NCBI GenBank assembly: GCA_019240395.1
Contig: JAFAYM010000165.1
Coordinates: 1 to 48,316 of the forward strand
Direction: 5' to 3'
Length of the DNA stretch: 48,316 bases
From: Acidisphaera sp.
GTDB taxonomy: Bacteria; Pseudomonadota; Alphaproteobacteria; Acetobacterales; Acetobacteraceae
A program made the position numbers and the translations under genes. The notes beneath the pieces were generated by a model. That model was given only the letters and a program-made list of their open reading frames with translations. It was not told the DNA's origin and ran no database searches. Below are positions 5,570 through 22,406 of this stretch, in pieces. Numbering within the stretch: position 1 is the stretch's first letter; each line of letters starts with the position of its first letter.

Positions 5570-6445
5570 ATGTGGAAAGCCATTGTTGCCGCCATCCTGG
5601 TGCTGATGGCCCGCGGTGCCGTGGCCGCAAACTTCTCGTACGACGGCAAGACCTACCAGTACGAGGCGATGCCGTTCTTCGAGAATTGCGGCGACGCCTC
5701 GCTGCAGAAGGCGCAGCACGACGGCATAACCTTGGGCATCTCGCCATCACCGCCCTATTCATCGATCGACCCGAACACCCAGGCGGCGAGCGGCATCGAC
5801 GTCGACATCAACAACGCCGTGCTCGGCTGGCTCGGCATCACCAAGGTGCATTACGAGGTGATGCCGTTCGGCCAGCTGATTTCCGCCATGCTGGCGCACC
5901 GCGTCGACCTGATCGCGGCGAATATCCACTACACGCCGGACCGCGTGAAGGTGATCGCCTTCACCTCGCCCGGCTGGTGGTACGGCCCGGCGATCGTGGT
6001 GCAGCGCGGCAACCCGCAGCACCTCACCTCCTTCGACGGGCTGAAGGGCAAGCAGGTCGGCGCCATCGCCGGCTCGGCTGCCGACGAATATCTGCGCAAG
6101 GTCGGCGCCGATGTCACGCCGTTCCAGACGGATGCCGAGGAGTTCGCGGCGATCTCCACCGGGCGCGTGCCGGCGATCGTCGAGGACGATGTCAAGGTGA
6201 TCAGCTACCTGCAGGCAAATGCCGGGGCGGCGATCGAGATCGTGCCGAACGTGAGCGTGCCGGATGAGCTGATCTTCGGCTACGGCTATGGCTATGCCCG
6301 CTACGCCACGCGCAAGGAGGATTGCTCGCTGCGCGCCGCCTACAGCCAGGGTCTCGCCGAAAGCCGCGACAACGGCGCGGTCTCGGCGATCCTCAAGCAT
6401 TACGGCCTGTCCAACCGCAATCTGTTCTTCTTCCCCGTGCAGTAG
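5570..6445 (+). CDS. Amino-acid-type ABC transporter substrate-binding protein (family 3)
   Basis: Periplasmic binding protein of 291 residues. The ATG at 5570 has AGAGGT upstream and starts a clear Sec signal peptide (MWKAIVAAILVLMARGAVA, cleavage near residue 19). The mature part has SBP family 3 landmarks: LGISPSPPYSSID, GIDVDINNAV, DLIAANIHYTPDR and the GLKGKQVGAIAGS hinge region. Two cysteines, near residue 41 (ENCGD) and in KEDCSL near the C-terminus, could form a disulfide; this is speculative. It is followed after 18 bases by its permease, but no ATP-binding gene follows. Ligand is unknown; polar amino acids are usual for the family. Confidence 0.92.
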   Translation: MWKAIVAAILVLMARGAVAANFSYDGKTYQYEAMPFFENCGDASLQKAQHDGITLGISPSPPYSSIDPNTQAASGIDVDINNAVLGWLGITKVHYEVMPFGQLISAMLAHRVDLIAANIHYTPDRVKVIAFTSPGWWYGPAIVVQRGNPQHLTSFDGLKGKQVGAIAGSAADEYLRKVGADVTPFQTDAEEFAAISTGRVPAIVEDDVKVISYLQANAGAAIEIVPNVSVPDELIFGYGYGYARYATRKEDCSLRAAYSQGLAESRDNGAVSAILKHYGLSNRNLFFFPVQ

Positions 6446-6463
6446 CCCGCTCGCGCCGACGCC

Positions 6464-7120
6464 GTGAATCTGCTCGATCTCGGCGTCGTCCACGATTACG
6501 GGTTCGTCTTCCTGCGGGGCTTGGGCATCACCACGCTGCTCACCGGCATCGTCATCGTGCTCGCCGGCACGCTGGCGATTCCGATCGCTCTGGCGCGGCT
6601 GGCCGGCGCGCGGGCGATACGCTGGCCGGCGGATTTCCTCGTCGAGTTCATCCGCGCGACGCCGCTGATCCTGCAGCTGATCTACATCTACTACGTGCTG
6701 CCCAGCGCCGGGGTGCGGCTCAACCCCTTCACCGCCGCCGTGCTCGGCCTGACCCTGAACTATTCCGCGTATATGAGCGAGGTCTATCGCAGCGGCATCC
6801 AGGCGGTGCCGCGCGGCCAGCGCGAGGCCGCGCTCAGCCTCGGTCTGCGCGGCTATCCCATCTTCATGAAGATCATCCTGCCGCAGGCGGTGCGCATCGT
6901 GCTGCCCGCGCTCGGCAATTACCTGATCGCGCTGTTCAAGGACACGGCGCTGGCCTCGGTCGTGACGGTGCAGGAGCTGATGTTCAGCGGCCAGATCATC
7001 GCCGCGCGCAACTACCAGTATTTCACGGTCTACACCGTCACCGCCATCCTGTATTTCGCCGTCGGCTATCCCTCGGCGCTGATGGTGCGCGGCCTCGACC
7101 GCCAGCGGCGACCGGCCTGA
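6464..7120 (+). CDS. Amino-acid ABC transporter permease (HisM/GlnP family)
   Basis: Inner-membrane permease of 218 residues, a normal length for this family. The GTG at 6464 starts MNLLDLGVVHDYGFVFLRG. It has membrane spans at about residues 20-45, 60-85 and 180-205, and the family motif FIRATPLILQL. The EAA loop that contacts the ATPase (REAALSLGLRG, about residues 124-134) is intact. It should work with the binding protein just upstream. The cognate ATPase is absent here, because the next gene 9 bases downstream is a nuclease, so an ATPase from elsewhere must be shared or the transporter is incomplete. Confidence 0.93.
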   Translation: MNLLDLGVVHDYGFVFLRGLGITTLLTGIVIVLAGTLAIPIALARLAGARAIRWPADFLVEFIRATPLILQLIYIYYVLPSAGVRLNPFTAAVLGLTLNYSAYMSEVYRSGIQAVPRGQREAALSLGLRGYPIFMKIILPQAVRIVLPALGNYLIALFKDTALASVVTVQELMFSGQIIAARNYQYFTVYTVTAILYFAVGYPSALMVRGLDRQRRPA

Positions 7121-7129
7121 AGGGTCGCC

Positions 7130-7948
7130 GTGAGGATCGCCACCTTCAACGTCAACGGCGTCAACGGCCGCCTTCCCGTGCTGCTGCGCTGGCTCGCCGA
7201 GACCGCGCCCGACGTCGCCTGCCTGCAGGAGCTGAAGGCGCCGGACGACAAATTCCCGCACGCGGCACTTCGCGAGGCCGGCTACGGCGCGCTCTGGCAT
7301 GGCCAGAAAAGCTGGAACGGTGTCGCCATCCTGGCGCGCGGCGCCGAGCCGGTGGAGACGCGGCGCGGCCTGCCGGGCGGGCGGGACGATCCGCAGAGCC
7401 GCTATATCGAGGCGGCGGTCAACGGCGTGCTGATCGGCTGCCTCTATCTGCCCAACGGCAATCCCGCGCCCGGACCGAAATTCGACTACAAGCTGGCCTG
7501 GTTCGAGCGGCTGGCGGCGCACGCGGCGGGGCTGCTGGCCACCGGCATGCCGGTCGTGCTCGCCGGCGACTTCAACGTCATGCCGACCGACCTCGACGTC
7601 TACAAGCCAGAGCGCTGGGTGGACGACGCGCTGTTCCGCCCCGAGGTGCGCGAGGCCTTCCGGCGGCTGGTCGCGCCGGGCTGGACCGATGCGCTACGCA
7701 AGCTGCATCCCGGCGAGCGCATCTACACGTTCTGGGATTATTTCCGCAACGCCTGGGTCCGCGACGCCGGGTTGCGCATCGACCATCTGCTGCTCAGCCC
7801 GGCGATCGCCGACCGCCTCGTCGCGGCCGGCGTCGATCGCGCCGTGCGCGGCTGGGAGCGCGCCAGCGACCATGCCCCGACCTGGATCGAGCTCGCCGCG
7901 CCCGACGCCGGCAAGCCGCGGCGGCCGAGAGCACGAGGAAGGCCCTGA
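7130..7948 (+). CDS. xth: Exodeoxyribonuclease III (AP endonuclease family)
   Basis: DNA repair nuclease of 272 residues that cuts at abasic sites and removes 3' blocking groups. All family catalytic positions are visible: N7/N9 (FNVNG), E34 (QELKAPD), Y106 (LYLPNG), D147/N149 (GDFNV), D218 (RIDHLL) and the terminal D247-H248 pair (SDHAP). GTG start at 7130. It is only 9 bases behind a transporter permease and 1 base before a DUF1810 gene, so it probably shares their transcript although the functions are unrelated. The last 15 residues are a basic tail (KPRRPRARGRP), possibly aiding DNA contact. Confidence 0.94.
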   Translation: MRIATFNVNGVNGRLPVLLRWLAETAPDVACLQELKAPDDKFPHAALREAGYGALWHGQKSWNGVAILARGAEPVETRRGLPGGRDDPQSRYIEAAVNGVLIGCLYLPNGNPAPGPKFDYKLAWFERLAAHAAGLLATGMPVVLAGDFNVMPTDLDVYKPERWVDDALFRPEVREAFRRLVAPGWTDALRKLHPGERIYTFWDYFRNAWVRDAGLRIDHLLLSPAIADRLVAAGVDRAVRGWERASDHAPTWIELAAPDAGKPRRPRARGRP

Positions 7949-10101: not shown

Positions 10102-11703
10102 ATGAAAACGTCCCGACGCAGCATCGTTCGTGCCGGCCTCGCCGCCGGAGCCATGGCGGGTCTCCCGCGTATCGCCCGAGCGCAGCCGGCGACGTCGGCG
10201 AGAACCCTGCGCGCCGTCATGCAGGCCGATCTGCGCGTCTTCGATCCGATCTGGACCACCGCCAACATCACCGGCTATCACGGCGCACTGATCTACGACA
10301 TGCTGTTCGGCATCGACGCCGATTTCAAGCCGCAGCCGCAGATGGTCGGCAAGTACAGCCTGAGCGACGACAAGAAGCTCTACACGATGGAGCTGCGCGA
10401 CGGCCTCGGCTGGCACGACGGCACGCCGGTGGTCGCCGCCGATTGCGTCGCCTCGCTGCGCCGCTGGGGTTCGGTGGACAGCGGCGGCCAGGCGATGATG
10501 GAGCGGGTGAGCGACATCTCCGCGAAAGACGAAAAAACCTTCGTCATCGCCTTGAAGGAGCCGTTCGGCCTGTTGCTGGACGAGCTCGCCAAGCCGGTGA
10601 CACGCTGCTGCTACATGATGCGCCGGAAGGACGCGGAAAGACCGGCGACGGAGCAGGTCAGCGCGAATATCGGCTCCGGCCCGTTCACCTTCAACCAGGC
10701 GGAAGCCAAGCCGGGGGCGCAATTCGTCTACGACAAGAACCTCCGCTACGTGCCACGGCAGGAACCGCCCTCCGGCCTCGCCGGCGGCAAGATGGTCAAG
10801 CTCGACCGTGTGGTGTGGGAGAATATCGGCGACGAGCAGACCGCGATGGCGGCGCTGCAATCCGGCGAGATCGATTTTTACGAAACCCCGCCGATCGACC
10901 TGATCGGGCAGCTCGAGTCCGACCCCGCCATCAAGGTCGACGTGCTGAACAAGACAGGCAACATCTGCATCCTGCGCATGAACTGGCTGCACAAGCCGTT
11001 CAGCGACGTCCACGCGCGCCAGGCGCTGCTCTATCTCGTCGATCAGAACGCCTTCATGAAGGCGTCCTTCGGCAATCCGAAATACTACCGCACGGTGCCG
11101 TCGATCTTCGGCAACGACACGCCGATGAGCAACGACGAGAACACCGACTGGTTCCGTCACGGCGTCGATCTCGACCGCGCGCGGGACCTGTTCAAGCAGG
11201 CGGGCTATGCCGGCGAGCAGGTGATCGTCCTGCAGGCCACCAACTTCGCTTATATGAGCAACTCCGAGCAGCTGATCGCCGGCCAGCTCAAGAAGATCGG
11301 CGTCAATGCCGAACTGGCGCCGAGCGATTGGGGCGGCGTCGTCACCAGGCGCGCCAACCAGGGCCCCGACGACAAGGGCGGGTGGGATATCTTCGTCACC
11401 GCCGACAGCGACTATTCGCACAGCGATCCGATCGGCGTCTCCTCGCTGTCGATGGCCGGCATGAACTCCTGGTACGGCTGGCCGTCGGACGATGCCTATG
11501 AGGCGCTGCGCCGCAAATGGGCTGACGCCGACACGCTGGATGAGCGCAAGGCGATCGCTCGGCAGATGCAGGGCCTGGCGTGGAATTCCGTCGGCACCGT
11601 GCTGCTTGGGCAATGGCTGGCCCCCGCCGCCTATCGCACCAACGTCAGGGGCGTCATCGGCATTCCCGAAATCATTCCGTTCTGGAATATCGAGAAGAGC
11701 TGA
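10102..11703 (+). CDS. Peptide-type ABC transporter substrate-binding protein (family 5)
   Basis: Periplasmic binding protein of 533 residues for the second importer. ATG 10102 has GGAGAG about 10 bases upstream. The N-terminus has twin arginines (TSRRSIVRAGLAAGAMAG) and a cleavage-like RIARAQ, consistent with Tat export. Typical family 5 elements are LRVFDPIWTT, GLGWHDGTPVVAADCV, GSGPFTF and the C-terminal lobe ending GIPEIIPFWNIEKS. It starts 115 bases after the M81 peptidase and its permease follows after 9 bases. The ligand is unknown; a peptide is suggested by the neighbouring peptidase. Confidence 0.94.
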   Translation: MKTSRRSIVRAGLAAGAMAGLPRIARAQPATSARTLRAVMQADLRVFDPIWTTANITGYHGALIYDMLFGIDADFKPQPQMVGKYSLSDDKKLYTMELRDGLGWHDGTPVVAADCVASLRRWGSVDSGGQAMMERVSDISAKDEKTFVIALKEPFGLLLDELAKPVTRCCYMMRRKDAERPATEQVSANIGSGPFTFNQAEAKPGAQFVYDKNLRYVPRQEPPSGLAGGKMVKLDRVVWENIGDEQTAMAALQSGEIDFYETPPIDLIGQLESDPAIKVDVLNKTGNICILRMNWLHKPFSDVHARQALLYLVDQNAFMKASFGNPKYYRTVPSIFGNDTPMSNDENTDWFRHGVDLDRARDLFKQAGYAGEQVIVLQATNFAYMSNSEQLIAGQLKKIGVNAELAPSDWGGVVTRRANQGPDDKGGWDIFVTADSDYSHSDPIGVSSLSMAGMNSWYGWPSDDAYEALRRKWADADTLDERKAIARQMQGLAWNSVGTVLLGQWLAPAAYRTNVRGVIGIPEIIPFWNIEKS

Positions 11704-11712
11704 GCCCGGGGG

Positions 11713-12654
11713 ATGGGCGCCTACATCGCACGGCGCCTCGTCTCGACGGTCCTGGTGATGGCGATCGTCGGCCTGTTCGTCTTTCTGCTGCTGCATGTCG
11801 CTCCCGGCGATCCCGCCGCCATCATCGCCGGCGACAACGCCACTCCGGCCAACATCGCGGCGATCCGCCAGCGCCTCGGGCTGCAGGACCCGCTCGCCGT
11901 GCAGTTCATGCACTGGACCTGGCGGCTGCTGCATGGCGATCTCGGGATTTCGATCTTTTCCGACGTGCCGGTGATGCGGCTGATCGGCCAGCGCCTGGAG
12001 CCGACGGTCTCGCTCACCCTGGTCACCATCGTCTATTCCGTGCTGATCGCCGTTGCCGCGGGTGTCGTCTCGGCCTGGCGGGCTGGCGGGATCGTCGACC
12101 GGTTCACCATGGGCGTGGCCACGCTCGGCTTCTCGGTTCCGGTCTTCGTGCTGGGCTACGCGCTGATCTACTATTTCGCCATCCGGCTGCGCTGGCTGCC
12201 GGTGCAGGGCTACGTGCCGATCGCGCGCGGCGTCTGGCCGTGGTTCGTCCACCTGATCCTGCCGTCCTTCGCCCTCGGGCTCGCCTACGTGGCGCTGATC
12301 GCGCGCATCACGCGGGCCAGCATGCTGGAGGTGCTCGCCGAGGATTTCATGCGCACCGCCCGGGCCAAGGGCGCCTCGACGGGCGCCATGCTGCTGCGCC
12401 ACGCGCTGAAGAACGCCGGCGTGCCGATCGTCACGGTGATCGGCATCGGCGTCGCCCTGCTGATCAGCGGGGTCGTGATCACCGAGACGGTGTTCAACAT
12501 CCCCGGCGTCGGCCGGCTGATCGTCGATGCCATCAGCAACCGCGACTATCCCATCATCCAGGGCGTGATGATCGTGTTTTCCGGGGTGTACGTGCTGATC
12601 AACCTGGCGGTCGATCTGGTCTATACGGTGATCGATCCACGTATCCGCTACTGA
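11713..12654 (+). CDS. Peptide-type ABC transporter permease (DppB/OppB family)
   Basis: Inner-membrane permease of 313 residues beginning MGAYIARRLVSTVLVMAI. It has the family VAPGDPAAII motif after the first span and an RTARAKGAS EAA-type loop near residues 215-223. Further landmarks are the VITETVFNIPGVG block and the closing NLAVDLVYTVIDPRIRY. It is preceded by the binding-protein gene (9-base gap) but, unlike most such operons, is not followed directly by its DppC partner: a type-1 binding-protein gene intervenes. It should still pair with the permease at 13917-14837. Confidence 0.95.
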   Translation: MGAYIARRLVSTVLVMAIVGLFVFLLLHVAPGDPAAIIAGDNATPANIAAIRQRLGLQDPLAVQFMHWTWRLLHGDLGISIFSDVPVMRLIGQRLEPTVSLTLVTIVYSVLIAVAAGVVSAWRAGGIVDRFTMGVATLGFSVPVFVLGYALIYYFAIRLRWLPVQGYVPIARGVWPWFVHLILPSFALGLAYVALIARITRASMLEVLAEDFMRTARAKGASTGAMLLRHALKNAGVPIVTVIGIGVALLISGVVITETVFNIPGVGRLIVDAISNRDYPIIQGVMIVFSGVYVLINLAVDLVYTVIDPRIRY

Positions 12655-12697
12655 TCGGCGCGGGTCGACGGCACCGCGCCCACCGAAGGAGAACGAC

Positions 12698-13942
12698 ATG
12701 ACGTGCAAGCCGCTGCAGGTCCGGCGCCGACAGCTGCTCTGGCTGACCGCCGCCCCGCTCCTTGCAGCACCGGCCGCCACCACGGCGGCCGAGGAGAGCG
12801 CCCTCTACATCGGGATCAGCGGCGCCTATACCGGCGCTGACGCGGCGAACTCAACGGCGACGCGCAACGGCGCGATGATGGCCATCCGCGAGGCCAATGA
12901 ACGCGGTGGCATCGCCGGGCACCGCATCGAGACGGTGCTGCTGAACGAGGCAACCGCCACCGCCGGCCAGTACGATCCCGCGCAGAGTGCCGACAACGCC
13001 CGAAAATTCGTCGCCGATCCGCGCATCGTCGCGCTGGTCGGACCGGACCACAGCGGCGCCGGCAAGGCGATGGCGCCGATCCTGAGCCAGGGCGATCTGG
13101 CGACAGTGACGCCTGATACGACCAGCCCGGACATCACCTCGCCCAAATTCGCCGCTGAATTCCGGCCGGCCGGCAAGCCGATCTATTTCCGTACTCTGAC
13201 CACCGACGAATACCGCGGTCCCGGAATGGCCCGCTTCTTCGCCAAGACGCTCGGCGCCAGGACCGTCTACATCCTCGACGATTCCGGCAGCTACGGGGTC
13301 GGCCTCGCGGACGCATTTGCCGCTGGTGCGCATGCGGCAGGGATGGAGGTGACCGGCCGCGATTCACTCGATGCGAAACAGCCCGACTACATGGCCGCCC
13401 TGACCAAGATCAAGGCCCTCAACCCTCAGGCACTCTTCTACGGGGGTGATCTTCAGGCCGGGGTGAAAGTGGCGAAGCAGTCCTACGAAGTCGTTCCGAA
13501 GATCATCAAGGGCGGTGGCGGCGGCCTGTATGGCGGCGGCTTAACCCATCAGGTCGGCTTCCCGGCTGCCGAGGGCTGGTTCGTGGCAGTCACCGCGCCC
13601 CATCTTCAAGGCGAGAGGATGACGTCCTGGCAGGGGCGCTACATGAAGATGTGGGGCGCGCCGGCGAGTGACTACTCGGTCACGGCTTATGACGCTGCGG
13701 CAGTCATCCTGGATGCGATCGGGCGCGTGGCGGCGAGCGGCAGGCCGGTCGATCGCCATGCCGTACGCGATGCCATCCAGACGACCGACCTGGACAGCCT
13801 GCAAGGCCCGATCCGCTTCGATGCAAATGGCGACATCACCGATCGTGTCATCAGCATCTTTCAGGTCCGGCATGACCCTGCCTATCCGGACAACGATGCG
13901 TCGCGCCAGTTCGCCTATGTCGGCAGCGCCCCGCAATCCTAG
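12698..13942 (+). CDS. Type-1 periplasmic binding protein (LivK/branched-chain amino-acid-like)
   Basis: Periplasmic binding protein of 414 residues. ATG 12698 follows GAAGGAGA. The signal region (RRRQLLWLTAAPLLAAPAATTAAE) has arginines before a hydrophobic core. The mature protein has the type-1 fold pattern of Leu/Ile/Val-binding proteins: IGISGAYTGADAANS, GAMMAIREANERGG, VGPDHSGAGKAMAPI, DDSGSYGVGLADAF and LYGGGLTHQVGF. It is unrelated to the family 5 binding protein in the same operon and sits between the DppB-like and DppC-like permease genes. Its own LivHMGF partners are absent from the window. It may serve another transporter, a sensor, or be a recent insertion; which of these cannot be decided here. 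Confidence 0.9.
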   Translation: MTCKPLQVRRRQLLWLTAAPLLAAPAATTAAEESALYIGISGAYTGADAANSTATRNGAMMAIREANERGGIAGHRIETVLLNEATATAGQYDPAQSADNARKFVADPRIVALVGPDHSGAGKAMAPILSQGDLATVTPDTTSPDITSPKFAAEFRPAGKPIYFRTLTTDEYRGPGMARFFAKTLGARTVYILDDSGSYGVGLADAFAAGAHAAGMEVTGRDSLDAKQPDYMAALTKIKALNPQALFYGGDLQAGVKVAKQSYEVVPKIIKGGGGGLYGGGLTHQVGFPAAEGWFVAVTAPHLQGERMTSWQGRYMKMWGAPASDYSVTAYDAAAVILDAIGRVAASGRPVDRHAVRDAIQTTDLDSLQGPIRFDANGDITDRVISIFQVRHDPAYPDNDASRQFAYVGSAPQS

Positions 13943-14837
13943 CAACGTTCCGGCGATACTCCTGCAGGGGGAACCGGGGTCCCTGGACGGCCGGGCTCTC
14001 CGCTCCCGCCGCGGCCTGCGCCGCTTCGTGCGGCGCCATCCCACGATCTGTCTGGGCGCCGGCATCATCGCCGTGATGATCGGGCTGGCGCTGGCGGCCC
14101 CGCTGTTCGCCGGCGACGCGCTGAGCATGGACCCGAGCCGCCGGCTGCAGGCGCCGTCCGCGGCGCTGTGGTTCGGCACCGACAATCTCGGCCGCGACGT
14201 CTTCGCGCGCACCGTGTTCGGCGCCCGGGTGTCGCTGCTGGTCGGCTTCAGCGTGGCGATCGGCGCTGTGCTCGGCGGCCTGATCATCGGCCTGGTCGCC
14301 GGCTACTCCCGCCGCTTCGACGGCGCGGTGATGCGGGTGATGGACGGGCTGATGGCGATGCCGTCGATCCTGCTGGCGATCGCGCTGGTGTCGCTCACCC
14401 ATGGCGGCGTCGGCGTCGTCATCGTCGCCATCGTGGTGCCGGAAGTGCCGCGGGCGGTGCGGCTGGTGCGTTCGGTGGTGCTGGGCGCGCGCGAGCAGCC
14501 CTATGTCGAGGCGGCGGTCGCCGGCGGCGCGCGCACCGGCACGATCCTGGTTCGCCACATCCTGCCGAGCACCATCGCGCCGCTGGTGGTGCAGGCGACC
14601 TATGTCTGCGCCAACGCCATCCTGACCGAGGCCGGGCTGAGCTTTCTCGGCGCCGGCATCCCGCCGGAAATCCCGAGCTGGGGCAACATGATCTCCAGTT
14701 CCCGGCTGTTCCTGGGAATCGCCCCCTGGACGGTTTTCGCCCCGGGCATCTGCCTCACCGTCGTGGTGCTGGCAGTCAACCTGCTGGGCGACGGCATGCG
14801 CGACCTGCTCGATCCGCGCCTCGCCCGGAAATTCTGA
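13917..14837 (+). CDS. Peptide-type ABC transporter permease (DppC/OppC family)
   Basis: Inner-membrane permease, 306 residues from ATG 13917; ATG 13896 (313 residues) is possible and neither has a clear ribosome site. Either start overlaps the end of the LivK-like gene, in a different frame, so translation is probably coupled. It shows the DppC pattern: a basic N-terminus, a first span at about residues 45-65, then [15 protein letters not shown]. The EAA loop ([11 protein letters not shown]) and the closing [14 protein letters not shown] are also present. Its stop overlaps the ATPase start by one base (TGATG). Confidence 0.9.
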
Positions 14838-15817
14838 TGGGGCCGCTCCTGGATGTCGAGGATCTGCGCACGCATTTCTTCGCCGAGGACGGCGTCACCC
14901 GCGCGGTGGACGGCGTCAGCTTCGCCATCGGAGGCGGCGAGACGCTGGGCATCGTCGGCGAATCCGGCTGCGGCAAGAGCGTCACCGCGCTCTCCATCCT
15001 GCGGCTGCTGCCGCGGCGCACCGGGCGCATCGTCGGCGGCGCGGTGCGCTTCGAGGGACGCGATCTGCGGCGCCTGACGGAGCGGGAGATGCGTGCGATC
15101 CGCGGCAATCGCATCGCCATAATCTTCCAGGAGCCGATGACCAGCCTCAGCCCGGTACACAGCGTCGGCGAGCAGATCGCCGAAGCGGTGCGCCTGCACC
15201 AGCGCGTCAGCCGCCGGGCAGCGCGCGCCCGCGCCGGCGAGACGCTGCGCGAGGTGCACATCGCCGATGCCGAGCAGCGGCTCGACGACTATCCCCACCA
15301 GTTCTCCGGCGGCATGCGCCAGCGCGCCATGATCGCCATGGCGCTCGCCTGCTCGCCCAGGCTGCTGATCGCCGATGAGCCGACCACCGCGCTCGACGTC
15401 ACCATCCAGGCGCAGATCCTGCGGCTGATGCTCGAATTGAAGGAGCGCATCGGTGCCGCGGTGCTGCTGATCACCCACGATCTCGGCGTCGTCGCGCAGA
15501 CCTGCCAGCGTGTCATCGTCATGTATGCCGGACGGACGGTGGAGGAGGCGCCGGTGCTCGAGCTGTTCGACCACCCCGCGCATCCCTATACGCGCGGCCT
15601 GCTGGCTTCCGTGCCGCGCCGCGCCGCGGCACGGCGCCGCCGACTGCCGGAGATTCCCGGCATCGTGCCGTCGTTGCGCGAGCCGCTCGTCGGCTGCCCC
15701 TTCGCGCCGCGCTGTCCCTTCGTCATCGACCGCTGCCGCAGCGAGACGCCGCCGATGCGTCCGCTCGACGCGAGCCACCGCGCCGCCTGCTGGCGCGCCG
15801 AGGAGGTGGCGGGATGA
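14837..15817 (+). CDS. Peptide-type ABC transporter ATP-binding protein (DppD/OppD family)
   Basis: ATPase of 326 residues coupled to the permease by a TGATG overlap. Walker A (GESGCGKS, residues 41-48), Q-loop ([12 protein letters not shown]), signature (SGGMRQR), Walker B (LLIADEP) and H-loop (LITHDLG) are all present. The C-terminal oligopeptide-transporter region has the cysteine pattern [10 protein letters not shown] and CRSETPP; in some OppD/DppD proteins these cysteines hold an iron-sulfur cluster. Its gene overlaps the second ATPase gene by 4 bases (ATGA). Confidence 0.95.
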
Positions 15818-16854
15818 ACAGCGCTGTTCCGGTGCTCGCGGTGGAGGCTCTGGAGAAGCGCTTCGCCGTGCGGCGCGGCTTCTTCCGTCGCGGCATCGCG
15901 GAGGTGCACGCGGTGAACGGCGTCTCCTTCACGGTGGCGCAGGGCGAGACGCTGTGCATCGTCGGGGAATCCGGCTGCGGCAAATCGACGCTCGGCAAGC
16001 TCGTGCTGCGGCTCATCGAGCCGAGCGGCGGGCGCATCCTCGTCGAGGGCCAGGACGTTACCCGCCTGGACGCGGCGGCAATGCGGCCGTGGCGGCGGCG
16101 CGTGCAGATGGTGTTCCAGGACCCCTACGCCTCGCTGAACCCGCGGCTGAGTGCGGAGAAGATCGTCGTCGAGCCGGTCGGCAACTTCCGCCACCTCGGC
16201 CGTGCCGAGCGCCGGGAGCGTGCGGCGCAATTGCTGGCGCGGGTCGGCTTGCGCAGCGACGCGCTCGATCGCTTTCCCTTCGAGTTCTCCGGCGGCCAGC
16301 GCCAGCGCCTGGCGATCGCCCGTGCGCTGAGTCTGCAACCCGCGCTGATCGTCGCCGACGAGCCGGTCTCGGCGCTCGACGTCTCGGTGCAGGCGCAGGT
16401 GCTGAACCTGCTGCTGGACCTGCAGGAGGAGTACGGCCTGGCCTATCTGTTCATCTCGCACGATCTCGGGGTCGTCGAGCATGTCGCGCATCGCATCGCG
16501 GTGATGTATCTCGGCCGCATCGTCGAGTTGGCGACGCGCGACGCGCTGTTCGCCGCGCCCACGCATCCGTATTCGGAGGCGCTGCTCGCCGCCGCGCCGA
16601 TCCCCGACCCGCGCATCCCGCGGCTCGCCGCCTCGGTGCAAGGCGAAGTGCCGAGCCCGATCGATCCGCCCGCCGGCTGCGCCTTTCATCCGCGCTGTCC
16701 GCTTGCGGTGGCGCGCTGCCGCAGCGAGATCCCCGCCCTGGCGCCGCTGCCCGACGGTAGCCTCGTCGCCTGTCACGTGCGCGCGCCGACATCGGCTTCC
16801 GCAGGCTGCTGCCCCGCTCGCCCGCGTTCCAGCGCCGCCGAAGCTGCTCTGTAA
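15814..16854 (+). CDS. Peptide-type ABC transporter ATP-binding protein (DppF/OppF family)
   Basis: Second ATPase of the importer, 346 residues. It has the DppF-type opening [17 protein letters not shown], Walker A (GESGCGKS, residues 51-58), [14 protein letters not shown], signature (SGGQRQR), Walker B (LIVADEP) and the H-loop (FISHDLG). The cysteine-containing C-terminal region reads [15 protein letters not shown]. Its last 25 residues (after ACHVRAP) look unconserved and run to a TAA at 16854. It is the last gene of the operon beginning at 10102. Confidence 0.95.
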
Positions 16855-17267
16855 TGACGTCAACTCGATCCGACGTGCTGGTCATGACGCCGTCGCGCGC
16901 CTCCACGCTTTGCCAGTGGGAGATCGTGTCCGGCCGGGTCGGGGCAATCTCACCGTCACCGCCATACCTGCAAGGAAAAGACCTTGACCAGTGCGACGGG
17001 ACGGACCAGGATGCGAGTGATCGATCACTCACAGAAAGCCGACGCGGTGCAGTTCGGGATTATCGCTGAGGCCAGCATGGTGCCTGACGGTGGCAATAGA
17101 TCAGTTGCCTAGCGCCGAATACTGAGCTGCGTTCCCGCCCGACCCCTTCGATTCGGAGACCGAGGTAAAGGAAGGCCACGCCTTCATCGAATTCCGCGGC
17201 TTCCAGGCGGAGTGACGGAATGAGGCGCTACGCTTCCGCCTCCTCTCCGGAGTGACGCTCAACGACC
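16855..17267. other. Intergenic stretch, no convincing gene
   Basis: About 410 bases between the importer operon and the low-GC flavoprotein gene. A 71-codon frame starts at 16854 overlapping the ATPase stop, but its composition is not protein-like. A short plus-strand frame near 17140-17216 reads FDSETEVKEGHAFIEFRG before a TGA, protein-like enough to be a decayed gene end, but I cannot assign it. No clear promoter or terminator seen. Confidence 0.5.
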
Positions 17268-19049
17268 ATGCGAGGAAAGATGAGAGCCGAACACATAGAA
17301 GCCGACGTGCTCGTGATTGGGGGTGGCGCAGCCGGCTGCATGGCGGCGCTCCAGGCAAATCGCCTTGGAGCTAAAGTACTGATGGTCGTCAAAGGCAAAA
17401 TGGGGCGCAGTGGAGCTACTCCGCTGGCAAGCGGCATCAGGTTGGGTCCGCTCTCATCCATACCCCCTCGGCTGCTGTCTCCTCTGAAGCGCGTCTACGC
17501 TAACGTCTCCAACTACGTCCGTCTGCCGATGCCAGTTCCCTTCTCGCATTCGCTCGCCGCGGCGGTGACGTCACATTTCGGGTTGGTGGATCAGGAATAC
17601 TTCCTCGACTTCGGTGTCTGGATGCAGAGTTTTCTTCCGTACGTGGAGGAGAGCGGACTCTACCTACGCCGGGACGACCAAGGATCTCTGGTCGCTGCTG
17701 CGCAAACCGGAATCTTTCACTCGCACGGAATGACCGGCTACCAGTTCGGTGAGTCCAGGCGAAAGGAGGTTCTTAGATCTGGCATCGACGTCATCGAGGA
17801 AGCAACCGCATTCACTCTTACCAGTTCGGCGGGCGGGGCGGTAAGCGGCGCGACCGTCCTGGACTATCGTAGGGGTCGACTGCTGGCGATCAGCGCGGGC
17901 GCCACGATCATTGCAACGGGTCACACAGACTGGCTGTCCACACGCGCGACTGCGACGCGCGAGATGGCGGCAAACGGCTTGGCGATGGCAGTTCGAGCCG
18001 GCGCTGAGCTTCACAATCTGGAAATTCAGTGGTTCCACGCCTCCGACATGGCCGCACCAAAAAGCTGGATGAGGCTCCACCACTATCCCAATCCGCTGCA
18101 CGGTAGCGAGCGTCGTGTCGTGATGCGGAACTCAAGCGGCAATGCCTACATGGATACGGCCGAAACAAAGGTGGTGATGCCGTATGCTATCCAAATGAAG
18201 GAATTGTACAAGCAGGTAAAGGTCGGCAACGCGAATTGGGATCATGGAAGCTTCGCCGATTTCAGCGCTGTCGAACCGCGTGTCTTGAAGGAATTCCAGT
18301 ACCACTGGGAGTTCTACAGTCACGCCGGGAAGGATATGAGTCGGGATCCGCTGGAATGCGGAATCACCTGGCACATGTGTGCCGGCGGCATTCGAGCGGA
18401 CCCGAAGACTATGCGGACCCGGGTTCCCGGCCTGTTCATTGCCGGGGGTGTAGGCGGGCATATGCTTGGCTCCATTGTGCTGGCGACGTTCGACGGTGAG
18501 CTTGCGGGTACTTACGCCGTCGAGCACGCTCGCCGGGCCGCTCGACCTGGCTTGGATTCAAAGCAGGTCGGGGTTGCGGAGCGCAAGCTGGGCATCCTGT
18601 CGGAAGTAGCCACCGGCGAAGACCTGTCACCGATAGCCGTGAAGGAGCAGATTCGCGCGGTAGCGTGGGAAAACATGATGTATCGAAAGACCGAGCGGTC
18701 ATTGCTCAACGCGATCTCCGAGCTGTCACGTATACGGAACGACGTAGTGCCCCGGATGCGCGTTCGGTCGCGTAGTCCGATTTATAACTGGGATCTCGTC
18801 GACGCCCTCGACGTGGAAGACATGATCGATGTTTTGGAGATGTCGGCCAATTCGTCCCTCGCGCGAACCGAAAGCAGAGGACCGCATTTCAGAGAGGACT
18901 TTCCGTTTACGGACAATGATAACTGGATCAAACATGTCGTAGTGCGTCGTGAGGGAGGCGAAGTGAAAATCAGCTTCGAGCCTGTACGCCAGAAATACGT
19001 GAGGCTCAAGGCGGGCAGGATTGACTATCTTGCCGATCCCTTGGCCTGA
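17268..19049 (+). CDS. Fumarate-reductase/succinate-dehydrogenase-like flavoprotein, function unknown
   Basis: FAD-dependent oxidoreductase of 593 residues. The N-terminal Rossmann motif VLVIGGGAAGCMAALQAN (residues 14-31), the RSGATPLASG segment and the GLFIAGGVGG FAD motif place it in the SdhA/FrdA/AprA superfamily. Key differences: the covalent-FAD His of SdhA/FrdA is Gly49, the substrate-loop FHPTG is FHASD (H257 kept), and the carboxylate-binding Arg of the NRLGS motif is Met399 (HMLGS). H369 (WHMCAGG) is kept. FAD is therefore probably non-covalent and the substrate is unlikely to be succinate or fumarate. The start is ATG 17268; ATG 17280, preceded by GAGGAAAG, is an alternative. Codon usage is visibly more AT-rich than the flanks. 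Its partner follows after 12 bases. No membrane-anchor genes are nearby. Confidence 0.85.
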   Translation: MRGKMRAEHIEADVLVIGGGAAGCMAALQANRLGAKVLMVVKGKMGRSGATPLASGIRLGPLSSIPPRLLSPLKRVYANVSNYVRLPMPVPFSHSLAAAVTSHFGLVDQEYFLDFGVWMQSFLPYVEESGLYLRRDDQGSLVAAAQTGIFHSHGMTGYQFGESRRKEVLRSGIDVIEEATAFTLTSSAGGAVSGATVLDYRRGRLLAISAGATIIATGHTDWLSTRATATREMAANGLAMAVRAGAELHNLEIQWFHASDMAAPKSWMRLHHYPNPLHGSERRVVMRNSSGNAYMDTAETKVVMPYAIQMKELYKQVKVGNANWDHGSFADFSAVEPRVLKEFQYHWEFYSHAGKDMSRDPLECGITWHMCAGGIRADPKTMRTRVPGLFIAGGVGGHMLGSIVLATFDGELAGTYAVEHARRAARPGLDSKQVGVAERKLGILSEVATGEDLSPIAVKEQIRAVAWENMMYRKTERSLLNAISELSRIRNDVVPRMRVRSRSPIYNWDLVDALDVEDMIDVLEMSANSSLARTESRGPHFREDFPFTDNDNWIKHVVVRREGGEVKISFEPVRQKYVRLKAGRIDYLADPLA

Positions 19050-19061
19050 AAGGATACCCTG

Positions 19062-19976
19062 ATGGTTAGGCTAAAGATTTTTCGCTACGACCCTGGGTTA
19101 TCTATCGGCCCTTATTACGAGGAAGTTTTCGTTCCCAAAACCGAAAACATGCGGGTCCTTGACGCACTGAATCTGGCGTATGAGACCATGAAGCATGGGT
19201 CCTTAGCGCACAGATGGTTTTGTGGGACTAAGAAATGCGGAGAGTGCGCGATCTCCGTGAACGGCAAACCGGTTCTCGCATGCTGGGAGGCCGTATCGGA
19301 TGACATGACATGCGAACCGCTGAGCAATTTTCCTATCATTCGGGATCTGGTGGTCGACACTGAGAACTATGAGAGAGACGTCATCATGAAGCTCCGGCCG
19401 TGGATGGAGCGAAGGTCCGTCCCCCTGTTTCCTGAGAAAGTAGGCCATGAAAAGATGCGCGCGGCCCATGCCTTGTCCAAGTGCATCGAATGCAACGTGT
19501 GTAGCGCCGCAATTCCCGTCGAGGGAGTCACCCCCGCCCGCGTCAAATACGCCGCCGGGGTCGGTACCGCGGCGCTTGTCCGCTTCACCCGCTTCCTACT
19601 TGACCCGCGGGACGAGACGGACCGCCGTCAACTGGCCAAAGCAGAGGGAATGCGTCCGTTTCCGAAGTTCGCCGTTCTAAGAGGCGTCTGTCCGCAAGGG
19701 ATCAACATACTTGACCAGGCGATACTCCCCGCCAACCGTGTTTTGTTTCCGTCGGAAGCCGAGGGAGATGTCGAGGATGGCGGAGAGCCGGCGATTTTCA
19801 TTCGTGCCTCTCATTGGAGCGCGTTCGTCCGACTCGAAGCTCGTGTACGATCTGCGCTTATCGAGGCGGGAGTGTTATCGAGAGTTGCCATCCCGACGCT
19901 ATCCGAGGCGTATGATCTGATAGAGAGCTTCGAGGTGGGTCCTGAGAAGTCCTCCGGAGTTGCTGCGCCTTTGTGA
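19062..19976 (+). CDS. SdhB/FrdB-like iron-sulfur protein lacking the [3Fe-4S] site
   Basis: Partner of the flavoprotein, 304 residues. The N-terminal ferredoxin domain has a complete [2Fe-2S] set with canonical spacing: C54, C59, C62, C74. The C-terminal domain keeps the [4Fe-4S] ligands C141, C144, C147 (KCIECNVC) and C210 (GVCPQG). The three [3Fe-4S] cysteines of SdhB are replaced by I151, F200 and L206. In succinate dehydrogenase that lost cluster passes electrons to quinone, so this protein likely ends its chain at [4Fe-4S]. The conserved PIIRDLVVD segment is present. A tail of about 75 residues after residue 229 has no SdhB counterpart that I recognise. ATG 19062 is used. Codon use (ATT, TTT, TTA, AAA) is unlike the GC-rich surroundings, suggesting acquisition. 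Confidence 0.87.
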   Translation: MVRLKIFRYDPGLSIGPYYEEVFVPKTENMRVLDALNLAYETMKHGSLAHRWFCGTKKCGECAISVNGKPVLACWEAVSDDMTCEPLSNFPIIRDLVVDTENYERDVIMKLRPWMERRSVPLFPEKVGHEKMRAAHALSKCIECNVCSAAIPVEGVTPARVKYAAGVGTAALVRFTRFLLDPRDETDRRQLAKAEGMRPFPKFAVLRGVCPQGINILDQAILPANRVLFPSEAEGDVEDGGEPAIFIRASHWSAFVRLEARVRSALIEAGVLSRVAIPTLSEAYDLIESFEVGPEKSSGVAAPL

Positions 19977-19989
19977 GAGTACCTTCTGT

Positions 19990-20730
19990 CTACAATGGGT
20001 CCGCGCCGCCGTCGCCGAGCAGTCCGCACAGCGGCTGCAGCCCGGATAGGATGAGGTCGGGAGGCGGAACGCTCGGGTCCAGGTCGAGGCCGCGCCGGTT
20101 GATCCAGGCGATGGTGAAGCCGAGCGGCTTGCCGCCCACCATGTCGGTGAACTGCGATTGCCCGGAGTGCAGGATGTGCGAGACGGGCAGCCCCGACGCC
20201 TCGAGGAGGTAGCGGAAGAGCGTTCCGTCCGGCTTGTAGCCGCGCGCCCTCTCGGCGGTGCACACGAGATCGAACTCGCGCCCCAGCGGCGTCATGCCGA
20301 GAAGATCGTCATCGATGTTGGAAACCAGGGCGAGCTGGTGGCCCCGCGCGAGGACATCGAGGGTCGGCAGGACGTCCGGGTAGAGCTCCATCGAGGAAAA
20401 GCAGTCGAAAAAACGCTGTATCGCATCTTCCCGGCCCGTCGCCACGCCGAACCTCTCGTACGCCTCGGAAAGGGAGAGGCGGCATACGTCCTTGTACGTC
20501 CTGTAGGGCTCGCGGTAGTGCGCTATGTTACGCTGCTCCCAGAACGAGTAGAACTCCTCGGGATCCAGGTCGGGCCGCCCCACGTCCGCGAGGATGGCCC
20601 GGAAGGCGCCGACGTTCGCAGGCGGCGTGTTGACCAAGGTGCCGTACACGTCGAACGAGAGCATGCGCGGCTCGAAGCCGTCCGGCAGCCTGGGTTCGGC
20701 AGACGGCGGCTGAGGCGGGCTGACGCTCAC
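19990..20730 (-). CDS. HAD-superfamily hydrolase, 2-haloacid-dehalogenase-like
   Basis: Cytoplasmic hydrolase of 246 residues. HAD motif I is FDVYGTLVN with nucleophile D27. Motif II is the Ser in LALVSNIDDD, motif III the Lys in RGYKPDG, and motif IV lies around GQSQFTDMVGG. The DVYGT form and the GGKPLGFTIAWINR ending resemble type II haloacid dehalogenases, though many such proteins are phosphatases. The start is GTG 20730 with AGGAG 7 bases upstream. It converges on the iron-sulfur gene (13-base gap) and follows the MetE-like gene by 129 bases on the same strand. Composition matches the host, so it is not part of the low-GC block. Confidence 0.88.
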   Translation of the reverse strand: MSVSPPQPPSAEPRLPDGFEPRMLSFDVYGTLVNTPPANVGAFRAILADVGRPDLDPEEFYSFWEQRNIAHYREPYRTYKDVCRLSLSEAYERFGVATGREDAIQRFFDCFSSMELYPDVLPTLDVLARGHQLALVSNIDDDLLGMTPLGREFDLVCTAERARGYKPDGTLFRYLLEASGLPVSHILHSGQSQFTDMVGGKPLGFTIAWINRRGLDLDPSVPPPDLILSGLQPLCGLLGDGGADPL

Positions 20731-20859
20731 GGTCGTTCTCCTGGCAAGGAACTGCGGAAAGGGGGCGGCAGCTCCGGCCGCCGAGGCTGGGAGCAGCGGT
20801 CATGGCCATCCCTGCGGTCGGTCGCGCAGGCGGTAAGCCTCGACTCAAGAGCCGAGCGT

Positions 20860-21894
20860 TCACTGCCCGATTTTGTCGCAGGCCAACCGAGCGCCGAGCG
20901 CTAGCGCCTGCAGCTTGGCCAGCGCGACCGAGCGGTCCATCGGCGCCATGCCGCAATTCGTGCACGGGAACAGCCGCTCCCGCGGTACATAGCGCAGCGC
21001 CTCCGCAATCGTCGCCGCCACTTCGTCTGGCGTCTCCACGGCCTCGCTCGCCACGTCGATCGCGCCGACCATCACATCCTTGCCGGCAAGCAGCGCCATC
21101 AGCCGCGCCGGCACGCGGGAATTGATGCATTCCAAGGACACCGCGTCGATCCGGCTGGCCGCGAGCGCCGGGAACACCTTCTCGTATTGCAGCCACTCCT
21201 CGCCCAGGCCCTCCTTCCAGCGAATGTTGGCCTCGATGCCATAGCCGTAGCAGATGTGCACCGCGGTCCGGCAGCGCAGGCCCTCGGCGGCCAGCTCCAG
21301 CGCGCCGATGCCCCATTCGACCGCCTCGTCCATGTAGACGTTGAAGGCCGGCTCATCGAACTGGATCATGTCGACCCCGTCCGCCTCGAGCCCGCGCGCC
21401 TCCTCGTTCAGCAGGCGGGCGAAGGCGTGGGCCATGCGCACGCGGTCGCCGTAATAGTCGTCGGCCAGCGTATCGACGATCGTCATCGGGCCCGGGAGGG
21501 TGAACTTGATCTTGCGGTCGGTATGCGTCCGCATCAGCCGGGCCTCGGCCTGGTGCGCCCGGCCGCGCAGTCGCAGCGCGCCGGTCACGGTGGGCACCAT
21601 CGCGTCATAGCGGTTGTTGCGGATGCCCATCTTGACCTTGCGGTCAAAGTCGATGCCCTCGACGTATTCCAGGAATCCGTGGACGAAGTGCTGGCGTGAC
21701 TGCTCACCGTCGGTGACGATATCGATCCCGGCATCCTCCTGCGCCTTCAGCCACAGCAGGGTAGCATCGGCCTTCGCCTCCTCCAGCGCCGGTCCAGCCT
21801 GACGCCAGGCTGGCCACAGCGTGCGTGTGTCAGCCAGCCACCCGGGCTTTGGCAGGCTACCGGCGATGGTCGTCTGGAAACGTTGTGTGGCCAT
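20860..21894 (-). CDS. Cobalamin-independent methionine synthase-like protein (MetE C-terminal core)
   Basis: Protein of 344 residues equivalent to the catalytic half of MetE; the N-terminal MetE domain is absent, as in core-MetE and related methyltransferases. Probable zinc ligands are H213 and C215 (VHICYG), E255 (SLEC) and C314 (CTNCGM). Other family blocks are AGSLPKPGWL, DGEQSRQHF, LPGPMTIVDTLAD and DMIQFDEPAFN. ATG 21894 has GGGAGGAC 8 bases upstream. It transfers a methyl group to a thiol; whether the donor is methyltetrahydrofolate or another corrinoid or methyl compound is not shown by the sequence. Confidence 0.88.
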   Translation of the reverse strand: MATQRFQTTIAGSLPKPGWLADTRTLWPAWRQAGPALEEAKADATLLWLKAQEDAGIDIVTDGEQSRQHFVHGFLEYVEGIDFDRKVKMGIRNNRYDAMVPTVTGALRLRGRAHQAEARLMRTHTDRKIKFTLPGPMTIVDTLADDYYGDRVRMAHAFARLLNEEARGLEADGVDMIQFDEPAFNVYMDEAVEWGIGALELAAEGLRCRTAVHICYGYGIEANIRWKEGLGEEWLQYEKVFPALAASRIDAVSLECINSRVPARLMALLAGKDVMVGAIDVASEAVETPDEVAATIAEALRYVPRERLFPCTNCGMAPMDRSVALAKLQALALGARLACDKIGQ

Positions 21895-22113
21895 TTGGTC
21901 GTCCTCCCGCGACGGACCCTACAGCAACCGGCAGATCATGCCGCCCTTTATCGCTCGGGCGTCAGTGCAAGGACGGCTTCGCTCCGTCCCCGTATCCTTT
22001 CCGCCGTCTCGGGCTTCTCGTGCCAGATCGCTTCAAGGACCCGCGTCACGGCGCGCCCCACTCCCTGCAATAACTGAGGTTTCCGGATAGTGGCGGACGC
22101 TGGCGAATGGATT

Positions 22114-22206
<93 letters not shown>

Positions 22207-22262
22207 GGCCGCGCACCTCTTAGGACGAGGGGACCGGCAGGGCAACGCCGCTCGCAAGCCGA

Positions 22263-22290
22263 TTGACAGGAGGCGCGGGGCCGCTATAAC
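22263..22290 (+). promoter_or_regulatory. Sigma-70 promoter for rplU-rpmA
   Basis: TTGACA (22263-22268), 16-base spacer, TATAAC (22285-22290), about 117 bases before the rplU start. Both hexamers are near consensus and it is the only good promoter between the divergent tRNA-Ser gene and rplU. Confidence 0.7.
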
Positions 22291-22406
22291 CCGCCCTCCC
22301 TGGCCGAAGGGGCATCCCGGCAGCCGGCGGCGTGCGTCCCTCTGCCAGGCCAGCCCGGCCGAACACGGGGGCGGGGACCACAGGGGCCGGACCACAGGAA
22401 CGAGCC

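Follow-up and report, generated by a model that had tools for sequence, protein, structure and literature searches.

The relatives of complex II are commonly regarded as wires of three clusters, and a natural iron-sulfur subunit that is short of exactly one cluster would be a test of how much of that wire is required and, in addition, of whether the distal cluster serves only the anchor or the SdhE partner. In TfrAB, the thiol:fumarate reductase of methanogens, the iron-sulfur subunit TfrB carries HdrB-type cysteines after its ferredoxin part. In the E-type complex II, SdhABE, which includes the 8-methylmenaquinol:fumarate reductase of Wolinella and the SQR of Acidianus, the iron-sulfur subunit is recognised, as is that of TfrAB, by two copies of the motif CxxCxxCxxxCP, and according to an excerpt of PMC2680327 this cysteine pattern implies a second [4Fe-4S] cluster that replaces the [3Fe-4S] cluster. 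It is also noted in an excerpt of PMC10238741 that the anchors of the class E enzymes are possibly peripheral and that some homologues of complex II are fully soluble; L-aspartate oxidase is named there as a soluble homologue of SDHA, and no iron-sulfur subunit with two clusters is named in that excerpt. A literature search on loss of the 3Fe-4S cluster in SdhB gave no case, which is a weak negative, the bracketed cluster names having probably hampered the matching.

Here we analyse a gene pair, A and B, in the window, i.e., the whole stretch of 48,316 nucleotides from Acidisphaera sp. that was studied, with all features discussed below lying on the forward strand. Gene A (17268–19049) encodes a flavoprotein subunit of the SdhA/TfrA type with 593 residues, as assigned by Pfam, NCBIfam and an alignment with SdhA (1nek_A), and gene B (19062–19976), which starts after a spacing of 12 nt from the stop codon of A and has an intact frame across 304 codons, encodes an iron-sulfur subunit of the SdhB/TfrB type, as assigned by Pfam, NCBIfam and PDB alignments. 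A matches FAD_binding_2 and Succ_DH_flav_C in Pfam, and residues 4–103 of B match Fer2_3. The best NCBIfam matches of both are to TfrAB and are far under the cut-offs, with A scoring 172.8 bits against TfrA (PRK06263, cut-off 718) and B scoring 130.4 bits against TfrB (PRK06259, cut-off 385); against MFR_FeS_SdhB the score of B is 33.1 bits, below the cut-off of 600. The B protein of one relative that has all the cysteines (L041) likewise stays below both cut-offs, at 90.3 bits for MFR_FeS_SdhB and 199 bits for TfrB. With 125.7 bits against TIGR00384 dhsB, above the cut-off of 88, and with a fold that matches SdhB/FrdB over residues 1–232 (Z up to 16.0, rmsd 4.7, 218 aligned residues), B belongs to the SdhB/FrdB iron-sulfur subunit superfamily. 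The fold was modelled with AlphaFold2 on 24 sequences with a mean pLDDT of 69.4, compared with 57.8 in an earlier model. The pair is flanked by DppF upstream and a convergent HAD-type hydrolase gene downstream, and among these Pfam-checked neighbours no SdhC or SdhD anchor gene adjoins A-B, in agreement with the first-pass annotation of this DNA. Neither subunit has a long hydrophobic helix, the maximum KD19 being 1.62 for A and 1.14 for B.

B shares with classical SdhB/FrdB the ligands of the [2Fe-2S] cluster, C54, C59, C62 and C74 (19221–19283), which are invariant in the 8-row family alignment, and those of the [4Fe-4S] cluster, C141, C144 and C147 (19482–19502) and the last one, C210 (19689–19691), as seen by alignment and codon reading. 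Unlike the classical subunit it has no [3Fe-4S] ligands, and of the two CxxCxxCxxxCP motifs of SdhABE and TfrAB it keeps only C141/C144/C147 and C210; it has neither the HdrB-type cysteines nor the cluster II of TfrB. By alignment and codon reading, I151 (19512–19514) stands where the first motif has its fourth cysteine, and F200, F203 and L206 (19659–19679) stand where the second motif has three. The first-pass annotation had already read the eight retained cysteines, with I151, F200 and L206 at the positions of the three [3Fe-4S] cysteines of SdhB, and the PDB alignments and the 24-row alignment from which we assigned the ligand positions bear out both readings. The loss of three ligands is thus real, but the family site has four cysteines, the fourth corresponding to F203, and relative to the family B has lost the ligands at the four positions I151, F200, F203 and L206, i.e., all of cluster II. 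By a crude chance estimate, a random loss of four out of the family's 12 ligands would remove one complete cluster in 3/495 cases. The codons are ATT for I151, TTT for F200 and CTA for L206, and since ATT and CTA are at least two base changes away from a cysteine codon (TGT/TGC), they argue for more than a fresh hit.

Could another residue have taken over the vacated site? B has nine cysteines in total and neither cysteine nor histidine in residues 148–209; the only spare cysteine is C84, which lies within the [2Fe-2S] domain, and a substitute cysteine filling the site is thereby ruled out. A frameshift hiding the cysteines is ruled out as well, the +1 and +2 frames over residues 130–175 and 180–225 containing no motif. 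The four vacated positions are all occupied by large hydrophobic residues (Ile, Phe, Phe and Leu), and from the sequence the site may have been repacked as a hydrophobic core. The structure model is poor exactly at this site, with pLDDT <50 at residues 148–167, and gives nothing firm on how it is packed.

Which kind of enzyme the pair descends from can be seen from its relatives. We found eight distinct relatives of A (L035–L041 and L062), and B follows A directly in 8/8, as in the window; the identity to the window proteins is 36.7–41.5% for A and 31.6–39.0% for B. Seven of them (L035–L041) came from a scan of a species-genome collection, which was based on two aligned A proteins, used two narrow peptide patterns and is hence not exhaustive, and the eighth (L062) came from a further genome. 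In contrast to the window B, the B proteins of 8/8 relatives have the CxxCxxCxxxCP motif twice, which is the E-type/TfrB pattern with both [4Fe-4S] sites. An SdhE/HdrB-like gene lies right after B in six of the eight (L035, L036, L037, L038, L039 and L041), being recognised by Pfam CCG in L035, L038 and L041 and read from sequence in the remainder, and the third genes of L035 and L038 match MFR_anch_SdhE with 227–232 bits, under the cut-off of 500. These close relatives, E-type or TfrB-like with a second [4Fe-4S] cluster, are at odds with the parent enzyme of the SdhC/SdhD type that was supposed in the first-pass annotation. The other two relatives, L040 and L062, are A-B pairs with no adjacent SdhE gene, yet they keep all eight [4Fe-4S]-motif cysteines, so that loss of the partner gene alone does not explain loss of the cluster.

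Among 132 other SdhB-like proteins that we read (30 ordinary SdhB from the genome itself and a family sample, the eight relatives, eight other SdhB-like proteins and 86 further ones), 129 keep the three SdhB cysteines, including 83 of the further 86, and a second B without the third site was not found. The three exceptions are two proteins cut by a contig end (L118 and L184) and one that runs out of frame (L182); the latter, an SdhB-like gene on contig C1 of genome G102 with a frame shift in mid-gene, is either an artefact or a broken gene. The ordinary SdhB of the genome itself, which lies on another contig (C5) and has all its ligands, is ruled out as the protein studied here. Of the 16 SdhB proteins from IMG/VR added to the alignment, 15 span the site and keep the cysteines and one (L079) ends inside it; two scans of viral contigs gave no relative of the window B, and the 152 plasmid records with B-like matches are all below 60% identity. 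With B as the query (P0001), 102/120 family genomes were matched at 1e-10. At 1e-25, the matches were 2/385 in the class (the genome itself and G245, whose match is on the same contig as L039 and is counted once), 2/349 in the order of G1084 and 2/297 in the order of G1088, the latter two each including the centre genome. With A as the query (P0002), the genome itself was the only match at 1e-45 among 299 genomes of the order and 398 of the phylum, and 2/43 genomes were matched in the order of G1087 with G1087 included. The genus is represented by one further genome, which is 72% complete, and A was not found there. The genome samples overlap.

No SdhE/HdrB-type CCG gene stands beside A-B in the window, where the convergent HAD gene follows B instead, and because an SdhE/HdrB-like gene accompanies B in six of the eight relatives, the missing partner of B is most likely SdhE. 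The genome itself has four CCG matches, which fall in two proteins on contigs C135 and C155, and one may suppose that a partner encoded elsewhere, either SdhE/HdrB-like or another anchor, docks on B and takes the electrons directly from the [4Fe-4S] cluster, with the path ending at quinone. By gene order and sequence, however, the neighbours of the two CCG proteins look like those of a LutA protein in a LutAB-like operon and of GlcF in a GlcDEF-like glycolate oxidase operon, each with a role of its own, and we regard such a partner in trans as very unlikely. The C-terminal tail of B (residues 227–304; 19740–19973), for which two helices are predicted at low confidence, had been considered a 75-residue extension that could be a docking site. 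Its length is normal for the family, with 93 residues after the last CP compared with 98–101 in the six SdhE-linked relatives (43 and 54 in L040 and L062), and its sequence is unlike that of the family. The tail is therefore not extra, and nothing singles it out for docking.

We now turn to the active site of A. In a profile alignment with E. coli SdhA (1nek_A), H242 and H354 of SdhA are matched by H257 and H369 of A. By contrast, R286 aligns with Y306 and R399 falls within a segment that is absent from the profile of the A family, these two being the dicarboxylate-binding and proton-transfer arginines of SdhA; T254/E255 align with P274/N275, with the gap placement near T254 uncertain. This distinguishes A from the flavoproteins of both classical SdhAB/FrdAB and E-type SdhABE. 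Since the missing succinate/fumarate arginines are a trait of the A family and not of the window A alone, A-B is, as far as the alignment goes, not a succinate dehydrogenase, and what emerges is an SdhABE-like gene family near uptake transporters whose active site does not allow its members to be succinate dehydrogenases. G49 of A aligns with the histidine of SdhA that links the FAD, and A is expected to bind FAD non-covalently. It is also seen that the window A diverges from its own family near the flavin, the FAD loop at residues 47–53 being RSGATPL in the window and KSGCSIF or RSGCSIF in 8/8 relatives.

In the window and in seven of the eight relatives, genes of uptake transporters are present at a distance of up to about 8 kb from A/B, the flanks of L039 having none, and a small imported molecule is thus suggested as the substrate. 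The transporters are of various types: by Pfam, TctC receptors in L036 and L037, a family-1/8 binding protein in L041 and the dpp type in the window, and, as read from sequence, Pot-like ABC transporters in L035, L040 and L062 and a branched-chain-type ABC transporter in L038. In the window, the dpp-type ABC importer genes (10102–16854; Pfam, NCBIfam and context) are separated from A by a gap of 413 nt (16855–17267) of intermediate GC (0.617), in which neither a promoter-like site nor an RNA-family match was found; an RNA-family scan of 16500–22400 gave one match, a tRNA at 22119–22206. The importer genes and A-B are at most a candidate shared operon.

Based on these results, we propose that A and B together would be a soluble oxidoreductase of the flavo-iron-sulfur type with an SdhABE/TfrAB-like enzyme as its ancestor. 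In this descent, B would have discarded all of its distal [4Fe-4S] site, and the partner gene of the SdhE type would have gone. The electrons would pass along the path of substrate, FAD, [2Fe-2S] and [4Fe-4S], with the substrate being probably a small imported molecule that is neither succinate nor fumarate, and the [4Fe-4S] cluster would exchange electrons with a carrier encoded away from A-B, e.g., ferredoxin, ETF or a cytochrome. We put the probability that A-B is a soluble two-cluster flavo-iron-sulfur dehydrogenase with [4Fe-4S] exchange to an unlinked carrier at roughly 0.5. More tentatively, the pair may represent a working branch of the complex II superfamily with two clusters, soluble, with a hydrophobic core in place of the distal cluster, with the [4Fe-4S] cluster passing electrons to a soluble carrier and with a substrate other than succinate. 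That the first-pass annotation had a soluble chain ending at [4Fe-4S] with another partner is borne out in so far as two clusters are kept and the third site is emptied, so that the chain can end only there; the new partner would be, as above, a conjecture. A different use of B can also be considered, in which B is mainly structural or stores electrons and A is reoxidised via its own FAD by oxygen or a soluble acceptor, as in L-aspartate oxidase, a homologue of A that works without a B subunit. From the geometry of complex II, the [4Fe-4S] cluster should sit deeper below the surface when cluster II is gone, and this speaks for such a use; the strict retention of eight ligands over a deep branch would be hard to explain with no electron flow through B, and we consider this explanation distinctly improbable.

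The main rival of the proposed two-cluster dehydrogenase is that B is degenerating, i.e., that the pair entered another genome with no SdhE, where the distal half of B came under weak or no selection, with A using another acceptor or the pair being useless. The two are compared on a single sequence, which does not separate them. The [2Fe-2S] N-domain of B has 45–50% identity to the relatives, with 50–57% between deep branches of the relatives, whereas the C-domain has 30–35%, compared with 39–50% between the other deep branches, and for the tail the value is 12–24%. B lies on a longer branch than A (1.49 vs about 1.0), and A-B forms a deep, lone branch, the placement being unsure because the window received a long-branch warning from the tree program. 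At sites invariant in the family, B deviates in 5/41 cases over residues 1–147 and in 9/24 over 148–226 (Fisher p 0.027), as would be expected from degeneration, but with the four cysteines left out the same test gives 5/41 and 5/20, with p 0.27, which is not significant, and the excess deviation in the C-half beyond the ligands is suggestive only. The absence of an adjacent SdhE and the LutA- and GlcF-type appearance of the operons of the two CCG proteins also fit with degeneration. The first-pass annotation had named homologues that carry the cysteines, with B as a lone decayed copy, as evidence against its reading. Half of this applies, in that the cysteines are present in 8/8 relatives and the survey gave no second copy without them. 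Decay of B would be a conjecture, with the unbroken reading frame, the retention of all eight ligands of the other two clusters, the conserved N-domain and the large hydrophobic residues at all four vacated positions speaking against it. We consider degeneration the less likely of the two. It is noted that the two-cluster dehydrogenase is proposed from the one B sequence, that its long branch and divergent C-domain are also expected under relaxed selection, and that the SdhE-less L040 and L062 speak against it by their full set of cysteines.

The composition of the pair bears on its origin. The GC content is 0.585 for A and 0.566 for B, compared with 0.687 for the window, and the third-position GC is 0.68 and 0.64, compared with 0.88–0.93 in four other window genes. 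By GC the pair looks foreign, which fits with degeneration after a move, and, with A absent from the other genome of the genus and from the rest of the order sample at 1e-45, the low-GC stretch looks like transferred DNA, although the contig may instead be chimeric there. In the case of a transfer, there may be a donor lineage that has this same B. For an empty-site comparison of the stretch, a search with the HAD gene at 1e-40 gave the genome itself alone among 95 genomes, which left nothing to compare; no tRNA lies at the borders of the stretch, and the repeats there are short and two-copy.

Finally, we note several features of the gene neighbourhoods. The SdhE-less pairs of L040 and L062 (990–12887) lie among Pot-like transporter genes together with an amidohydrolase, which is of the TRZ/ATZ type by family match in L040 and is read from sequence in L062; L062 also encodes a cyanuric acid amidohydrolase, with 441 bits against a cut-off of 360, and the two neighbourhoods hint at heterocycle catabolism. 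In L035, a gene for a UbiD-family decarboxylase (6335–7714; TIGR00148, 361 bits) is immediately upstream of the A-B-SdhE genes. In the window, the dpp-type cluster contains two dissimilar binding-protein genes, SBP_bac_5 (10102–11697) and a LivJ-type Peripla_BP_6 (12698–13936), with the latter sitting between the two permease genes of the cluster.
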